Positions 34,425-35,550 of a DNA stretch of 35,550 nucleotides are shown here, in pieces. Positions within the stretch are counted from its first letter, which is position 1. Every line of letters starts with the position of its first letter. A program made the position numbers and the translations under genes. The notes below the pieces were generated by a model. The model saw nothing but the letters and a program-made list of their open reading frames with translations. It was not told where the DNA came from and ran no database searches. The stretch is from Elusimicrobia bacterium HGW-Elusimicrobia-2 (GTDB taxonomy: Bacteria; CG03). The DNA lies in NCBI GenBank assembly GCA_002841685.1, contig PHAM01000015.1:1-35550 (forward strand), written 5' to 3'.

Positions 34425-34430
34425 GGTCAC

Positions 34431-34460
34431 GATGTTGCGGTACAGGATGTTGCGGTACAG
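34431..34460. repeat. Perfect 15-bp tandem duplication
   Basis: GATGTTGCGGTACAG occurs twice in direct contact (34431-34445, 34446-34460), just upstream of the -35 of the leftward promoter. It may be a replication-slippage scar or a binding-site duplication. Confidence 0.8.
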
Positions 34461-34510
34461 GACAAGGGCTCCCGAAATTTGGTAGAATGAAACTATGAGT
34501 AACAATAAAT

Positions 34511-34641
34511 GAGTCCACTCTAATAAGTCCTTTTCAATGTCATTTCGAGGAGCATAGCGACGAGAAATCTTTTTATTATAAGCATTTCAGATTTCTCGCT
34601 TCGCTCGAAATGACAACTTTAATGCTTTTTGGAGTGGACTC
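34511..34641. mobile_element. 131-bp MITE with terminal inverted repeats and 6-bp target duplication
   Basis: Ends are perfect 10-bp inverted repeats, GAGTCCACTC and GAGTGGACTC, with partial pairing further in. ATAAAT flanks it on both sides (34505-34510 and 34642-34647), a target-site duplication. Inside are inverted arms TGTCATTTCGAG (34538-34549) / CTCGAAATGACA (34604-34615) and GAGAAATCT (34562-34570) / AGATTTCTC (34589-34597). No coding capacity; it would depend on a transposase elsewhere. Its removal with one ATAAAT restores the reading frame of the next gene. Confidence 0.82.
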
Positions 34642-34661
34642 ATAAATATCTTGATTTTTTA

Positions 34662-35550
34662 ATGCAGGTTAAAACACGAATTCAAACATCCCGGTTGCGG
34701 GCTGTTTTGTCCGTAAATGCGGAATTAATCTATCTATACTGGGATATCGGGCGAATGATTGATAAAAGGCAAAAAAAGGAGGGCTGGGGCGCCGGCGTTA
34801 TTCCGAAATTATCAAAAGATATTAGAAATGAATTATCAGAGGTTAAAGGTTTTTCCGAGAGAAATCTTAAAAGGATGGTTCGCTTTTTTCGTGAATATCT
34901 TTCGTTAGTCACAATTGTGCCACAGCCTGTGGCACAATTAGAGGAAAGGAACAAAAGAGGGGAAAAAGTGCCACAAGCTGTGGCAAAATTAGCTCCAAAA
35001 GAGGTATTGGAAAAATTGCAGCAGACTGTTGCAAAAATTCCATGGGGGCACAATGTCTTACTTATGGAAAAAGTCAAAGACATGTCTTCCCGGTTGTGGT
35101 ATATGCAAAAAACTATAAAAAACGGCTGGAGTCGCAATGTGCTTAGTTTGATGATTAAGGGCGGCGCTCATCAGCGGGAGGGTAAGGCGGTTACCAATTT
35201 TGATTTACGCCTTCCATCTCCGCAATCGGATTTAGCAAAACAATCTTTAAAAGATCCGTATATTTTTGATTTCCTTACGTTAGAAGAACCATTCAGAGAG
35301 CGGGAGCTGGAAGCGGGTCTTATCCGGCATTTAGAAAATTTTTTATTGGAATTAGGTCAGGGATTTTCATTTGTAGGACGGCAATATCATCTTAACCTGC
35401 ATTATTCATCTCTGAAAACCTACCCTTTGTCAAGCCCCTTTTTTAAATCTATTGGGAATAGGAAGGGACATCGTGACCCCCCTGGGAAGAAATATAGGTT
35501 TATCAGGTTGATTTGTTTTGGGGAAGAATATGAAAAGAAGATAAGGATTA
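34662..35550 (+). CDS. DUF1016 (YhcG-type) protein, 5' end split by MITE, 3' end altered and runs off the window
   Basis: An open frame with the DUF1016 N-terminal pattern: AVLSVNAELIYLYWDIGRMI, a KGFSERNLKRMVRFF helix, IPWGHNVLLMEKVKD, and DPYIFDFLTL...GFSFVGRQYHL. In the family a PD-(D/E)xK nuclease core then follows. Here, after about position 35,396, the translation no longer resembles the family, although it stays open to the window end. The ATG at 34662 has no ribosome-binding site; an older start at 34495 is separated from it by the MITE. It is probably a decaying gene. It contains a Pro/Gln-rich insert with palindromic DNA. YhcG-type proteins are linked to defence and mobile-element regions, but their role is not settled. 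Confidence 0.7.
   Translation, partial: MQVKTRIQTSRLRAVLSVNAELIYLYWDIGRMIDKRQKKEGWGAGVIPKLSKDIRNELSEVKGFSERNLKRMVRFFREYLSLVTIVPQPVAQLEERNKRGEKVPQAVAKLAPKEVLEKLQQTVAKIPWGHNVLLMEKVKDMSSRLWYMQKTIKNGWSRNVLSLMIKGGAHQREGKAVTNFDLRLPSPQSDLAKQSLKDPYIFDFLTLEEPFRERELEAGLIRHLENFLLELGQGFSFVGRQYHLNLHYSSLKTYPLSSPFFKSIGNRKGHRDPPGKKYRFIRLICFGEEYEKKIRI
34913..34939 (+). repeat. 27-nt perfect palindrome inside the DUF1016 gene
   Basis: Arms AATTGTGCCACAG (34913-34925) and CTGTGGCACAATT (34927-34939) pair perfectly around one C. A diverged copy, GTGCCACAAGCTGTGGCA, lies at 34967-34984. The encoded peptides are VPQPVAQL and VPQAVAKL, and a third related unit, LQQTVAKI, leads into the conserved IPWGHN. Confidence 0.75.

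Follow-up and report, generated by a model that had tools for sequence, protein, structure and literature searches.

The interrupted gene and its element

The window, that is, the whole 35,550-bp stretch of DNA analysed, ends within a gene of the DUF1016/YhcG nuclease type which carries a mobile element at its fifth codon and other repeats in the place of its 3' third. The features of this region are the following:

34495..34512, plus strand: original start and first codons ATG AGT AAC AAT AAA, then TGA; in frame with the downstream part after removal of the insertion
34505..34510, no strand: left target-site duplication ATAAAT
34511..34641, plus strand: non-autonomous, ORF-free MITE of 131 bp, recognised by its ends, duplication, copies and fold
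34511..34527, plus strand: left terminal inverted repeat GAGTCCACTCTAATAAG, 10 bp perfect, 17-bp family motif
34538..34615, no strand: inner palindrome TGTCATTTCGAG...CTCGAAATGACA, with the inner arms CGAGAAATCT/AGATTTCTCG
34625..34641, minus strand: right terminal inverted repeat, reading GAGTCCACTCCAAAAAG on that strand
34642..34647, no strand: right target-site duplication ATAAAT, where the similarity to the uninterrupted orthologue begins
34648..35395, plus strand: rest of the DUF1016 (YhcG-type) frame, homologous to the orthologue on contig C26 of genome G002
35396..35453, plus strand: non-homologous sequence in place of the 3' third of the gene
35454..35550, plus strand: end of a high-copy repeat (TGGGAATAGGAAGGGACATCGTGACCC...), which terminates the contig

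The initial annotation had described a 131-bp element with perfect 10-bp ends and a perfect ATAAAT duplication, and the positions read in the sequence confirm it exactly. The outermost 10 bp are GAGTCCACTC at 34511-34520 and GAGTGGACTC at 34632-34641, and the arms extend imperfectly to 19 nt with 89% complementarity; the window contains no second GAGTCCACTC, also when one mismatch is allowed. The interior of the element consists of two nested palindromes, and the folding energy of the single strand is -56.1 kcal/mol, against -25.1 +/- 3.2 kcal/mol for shuffled sequences (z = -9.7). The palindrome at 34538..34615 recurs in the same genome within elements bearing different ends. No ORF of 60 amino acids or more lies inside the element. 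It is thus short, lacks a transposase gene, is bounded by inverted repeats and a target duplication and exists in multiple copies, and its ends match those of autonomous-type elements, found in other genomes, that encode an IS1182-like transposase; these are the properties of a MITE. The element gave no match to plasmids and the family ends none to the viral contigs of IMG/VR, and the Rfam matches were all below threshold and outside the element.

With one copy of the hexamer, the insertion adds 137 bp (131 + 6) and therefore shifts the frame. Directly after codon 5, the last T of the left duplication and the first bases of the element form a TGA (34510-34512). Removal of the 137 bp had been predicted to let the ATG at 34495 read into the downstream frame, and it does: the joined flanks read MSNNKYLDFLMQVKTRIQTSR, and the joined frame, which begins MSNNKYLDFLMQVKTRIQTSRLRAV... 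(also given as MSNNKYLDFLMQVKTRIQTSRLRAVLSVNAELIYLYWDIG), is open to 35395. Its downstream part contains DUF1016_N (E 8.6e-40) and the initial part of the YhcG_C nuclease domain. The only possible restarts after the insertion are ATG 34662 and TTG 34629, the latter within the element, and on inspection of the sequence neither is preceded by a good ribosome site.

Two further details of the gene and its surroundings were observed. The linker of the protein (34915-35030) is built of repeated PQ(P/A)VA(Q/K)L-type units, the number of which varies among homologues, and two tandem 15-bp direct repeats, CACGATGTTGCGGTA/CAGGATGTTGCGGTA, lie upstream of the gene at 34428-34457.

Uninterrupted orthologues and decay of the 3' end

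A related genome with an empty site is provided by G002, a member of the same genus, whose orthologue is uninterrupted and reads MRIEKNKYLDFLAQIKTRIQTSR / MRIEKNKYLDFLAQIKTRIQTSRVRAVLSVN. It shares 77% amino acid identity with the joined frame over residues 1-256, and by BLASTN the similarity starts at window position 34642, the first base of the right duplication, and continues at 81% up to 35395. A third member of the genus, G003, reads MQIKKNNYLDLLTQVKSRIQ, so that the restored N-terminus is matched by homologues in both genomes. Its description as the usual DUF1016 start holds within the genus but not outside it, where the N-termini vary and only the pattern Y...L...(I/V)K.RI is kept. Since the conservation shared with G002 does not extend to the DNA before the gene, the first codons (MSN) are assigned solely from the frame, the duplication and their position. 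The dN/dS ratio of the gene is about 0.22 over 253 aligned codons, and the gene was therefore constrained during most of the separation.

The similarity to G002 ends at 35395, about 115 codons before the end of the protein. The 53 bp at 35401-35453, starting with ATTATTCATCTCTGAAAACC, are 100% identical to positions 47-99 of contig C38 of the same genome (G000) and probably represent the terminal part of another repeat that entered the gene. The repeat at 35454-35550, which is probably an insertion sequence, is found at 14 other places of the genome, nearly all of them contig ends, with 95-100% (mostly 99-100%) identity. Contig C44 carries 172 bp left over from the missing C-terminus, with 86% identity to G002, next to a palindromic element of another end type. 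The initial annotation was right that the element interrupts the gene, but the gene is broken elsewhere too, with foreign repeats after 35395. The nuclease region has gone from this copy together with the 3' third that carried it, and the gene is therefore a pseudogene. The MITE is one of several insertions in it, and the order of events cannot be told.

Copies in the same genome

A search of the genome with the element gave 22 matches, and the other copies that had been sought are present, two of them near-identical and others diverged. The two are near full length, each split across contigs and with a 6-bp duplication of its own, ATGGTT for the copy at the ends of contigs C84 and C54 (L004, L003) and ATGTTT for the copy at the starts of C22 and C21; each contig join is inferred from the duplication that its two contig ends share. 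The insertion in the window had been called recent, which holds only in the sense that its ends, duplication and frame are intact; it differs by 6-9% from these two copies. A longer relative (C22:1820-2086) is flanked by ATAAAT. Another (C40:16032-16254) has the same ends, no clear duplication and an unrelated core palindrome (GTCATTCCC...), and therefore cores differ within this genome too.

The start codon at which the C84/C54 copy sits belongs to an ORF that begins MSEYLIPVTIEHLEEGGYLATSSALQG and looks HicB-like from the appearance of that sequence; the 6-bp duplication regenerates an ATG. Removal of the copy leaves AGGAGGATAAACC-ATG-MSEYLIPVTIEHLEEGG, i.e. AAAAGGAGGATAAACCATGTCAGAATATTTA, a textbook Shine-Dalgarno sequence followed by a start codon, and this is a second case of a restored frame start.

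In a second family of the same genome the ends resemble ATTATTCATACTC and the palindrome core, GTCATTTCGAG, is the same. Its loci (L010-L014, L016 and L018-L020, on contigs C85, C72, C60, C7, C6, C44, C63, C25 and C16) are for the most part at contig ends.

A family of ends in several phyla

When about 85,000 species genomes were scanned for GAGTCYRCTCYAAWAAGYC, at least 117 stretches were returned. Among the matches listed, the family ends GAGTCYRCTCYRAWAAG (also given as GAGTCCACTCTAAAAAG and as GAGTCYRCTC) belong mostly to Bacteroidota, and also to Ignavibacteria, Cloacimonadota, Calditrichota, Spirochaetes, Fibrobacter and an Elusimicrobia genome; some single matches in other phyla that have no partner end may be due to chance. 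An exact 6-bp direct repeat flanks 65 of 113 distinct paired-end elements of 52-259 bp, and no other duplication length is seen in more than two of them. By chance, such duplications number 1.9 on average and 8 at most with shuffled partners, and 0-1 when the flank is shifted by 1-3 bp. Their consensus is A-N4-T, with A at position 1 in 59/65 and T at position 6 in 55/65. Many of the MITEs devoid of an exact duplication have one with a single mismatch, which makes decay a likelier explanation than flank palindromes, and palindromes in the flanks of these elements are not more frequent than in shuffled sequences.

The interiors sort into 20 clusters that have no relation to one another, and many are strongly self-complementary. 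G061, the Cryomorphaceae MAG JAFIEY01, has 896 end matches when one mismatch is allowed, against zero for the backwards-pattern control; such controls were near zero throughout. The same genome holds minimal elements of 55 bp (e.g. L177:1143-1197) that consist almost entirely of the two ends, and 6-bp duplications flank some of them. An exact end match was found in only 9 of the 386 genomes ranked by relatedness, and the family is therefore patchy. At the level of sequence, these results show that the 17-bp ends define a family which spans several phyla, is flanked by exact duplications of 6 bp and varies in its interiors, these being unrelated. It is apparently undescribed: the papers listed by a limited literature search on the end and core sequences were all unrelated, and none of those covered describes the family.

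A candidate transposase

In G089 (C42:873-2728), facing ends that are perfect over 19 bp delimit 1856 bp and enclose a gene for a 563-aa transposase. Like the members of the IS1182 family, this protein covers nearly the whole of NF033551 (3.9e-24, profile positions 38-487 of 488) and contains the domains DUF772 (PF05598, 24.3 bits for a cut-off of 23.1) and DDE_Tnp_1_6 (PF13751, 34.3 bits for a cut-off of 25.1). Its NF033551 score of 85.4 bits is below the cut-off of 270, and it is therefore filed as IS1182-like and not as a member of IS1182. A protein search in 33 genomes found homologues in nine; two of the nine, G014 and G406, represent one and the same genome. With up to two mismatches, the end motif is present at seven of the nine distinct homologue loci, which were located by the protein search alone, without use of the ends, and the backwards control gave 0. 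L290 and L291 have the transposase bounded on both sides by exact motifs; in L299 it is likewise bounded at either side, with one mismatch. Beside the transposase genes, the identity of the ends is 16-17 of 17 bp, and the sequence common to MITE and IS is limited to these terminal ~17 bp. G411 and G409 each combine MITEs that have 6-bp duplications with a transposase beside which a matching end lies. The Elusimicrobia LH_S2 genome contains a related 5' transposase fragment beside which the end motif is not recognisable.

A transposase with matching terminal repeats, which the initial annotation had proposed to look for, thus exists in G089 and other genomes, but the protein search found no IS1182-like transposase in the window's own genome, where one may be concealed by the 94-contig assembly, or in its genus.

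Other transposases were also considered. The PF01609 loci, examined one by one, include none bounded by the family ends, nor were any found among ISNCY_2 (NF033594) and IS1595 (PF12762) in a scan of the whole set. The PF13751 search gave one weak match below the cut-off, L263, which is the L299 copy.

The target sites of the transposase-bearing copies do not all conform to those of the MITEs. L291 lies within the palindrome AAAAGTT|AACTTTT and has no direct duplication; L290 lies within a palindrome of 17-bp arms whose centre, ATATAT, may or may not be a duplication; L299 has no duplication and its palindrome is weak. IS1272, of the IS1182 family, is reported to insert in hairpins and to make no duplication (PMC4923244, PMC5678879). 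In its palindrome without duplication L291, at least, resembles IS1272 rather than the MITEs, which do not follow the IS1272 palindrome rule. There are two readings: the transposases of this branch cut with 6-bp staggers and the long copies are exceptions, or the MITEs are moved by a different enzyme.

Proposed model and alternatives

In the model we propose, the 131-bp MITE has inserted at codon 5 of a DUF1016/YhcG-type gene of a member of the Elusimicrobiota, its target being the hexamer ATAAAT, of the form A-N4-T. It would have been moved in trans, by cut-and-paste with a 6-bp staggered cut, by a divergent DDE transposase of the IS1182-like type, since the genes of this enzyme are bounded elsewhere by the same ends. 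The insertion would have stopped translation from the original start through the TGA and the strong hairpin. The gene, whose 3' end was lost in a second break that had already occurred or came later, is now a pseudogene. We regard this explanation as a whole (MITE at codon 5, family, mobiliser in trans, pseudogene) as highly probable, and the part of it that makes an IS1182-like partner the mover of the MITEs as rather likely. More tentative is its extension to a cross-phylum superfamily of MITEs driven by an IS1182-like enzyme, with a constant end of ~17 bp and an A-N4-T 6-bp stagger unlike IS1272; its swapped cargo would consist of unrelated palindromes, themselves repeats, exchanged freely between end types. 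This extension is possible, and we would not call it probable.

The mover of the MITEs could also be another transposase, one whose target duplications are 6 bp long, and the IS1182-like elements would then only share similar ends or have captured them. In favour of this, the 6-bp duplication is regular in the MITEs and absent from at least one transposase-bearing copy, IS1272 of the IS1182 family makes no duplication (PMC4923244, PMC5678879), and most of the MITE-rich genomes tested, G061 included, have no detectable homologue of the transposase. Copies without duplication could, however, be older or rearranged; the near-complete end identity is found beside transposase genes that were located independently of the ends, and the searches with PF01609, IS1595, ISNCY_2 and PF13751 yielded no other end-bounded transposase. 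We consider a different mover a possibility to be taken seriously, at a probability well short of even.

That the element serves a regulatory or structural role, as a terminator or REP-like repeat, and is kept at gene starts for it rather than being mobile, would agree with the high stability of the hairpin and with the occurrence of the core palindrome outside the family in the same genome; duplications, an empty site and an interrupted coding frame are, however, signs of transposition, and we judge such a role very unlikely. The interruption could finally have been created during assembly of the metagenome bin, a fragmented genome in which several contigs end within related repeats; the element is nevertheless fully spanned within its contig, with both flanks and an exact duplication, and its 6-9% difference from the other copies shows that it was not collapsed, which leaves an artefact extremely unlikely.

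Relation to known systems

The element resembles the prokaryotic MITEs reviewed in PMC10969869, which include the intragenic RPEs of Rickettsia, in that such elements are short and gene-free, have inverted ends, strong internal palindromes and a target duplication, occur in many copies and insert into coding frames. Unlike the in-frame fusions of the Rickettsia RPEs (PMC10969869), the 131-bp element ends the frame with TGA, and unlike in known MITEs, the ends of the family are common to several phyla while the interiors are unrelated. The partner resembles IS1272 in the palindromic site, without duplication, of at least one transposase-bearing copy (PMC4923244, PMC5678879), and departures from IS1182 lie in the profile score of this transposase (85 against 270 bits) and in the regular 6-bp A-N4-T duplications of the MITEs, of which IS1272 has none. 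Target duplications of 5-6 bp are likewise known from the IS1634 family (PMC2266710), whose elements have a terminal C where the family ends have GAG, and no IS1634-type transposase with family ends was found. As in the REP/RAYT systems (PMC2817692), many palindromes are dispersed in the genome and the transposase gene is elsewhere; REPs, however, use tyrosine transposases (PMC2817692), and here a DDE enzyme is suggested by true terminal repeats together with the 6-bp duplications.

In conclusion, the single event is an ordinary MITE insertion and gene decay, unusually well documented by exact ends, a target duplication, an empty site and sister copies. Starting from it, an end sequence was recognised that hundreds of elements carry in Bacteroidota and related phyla, and the candidate mobiliser makes the spread of such MITEs directly testable.
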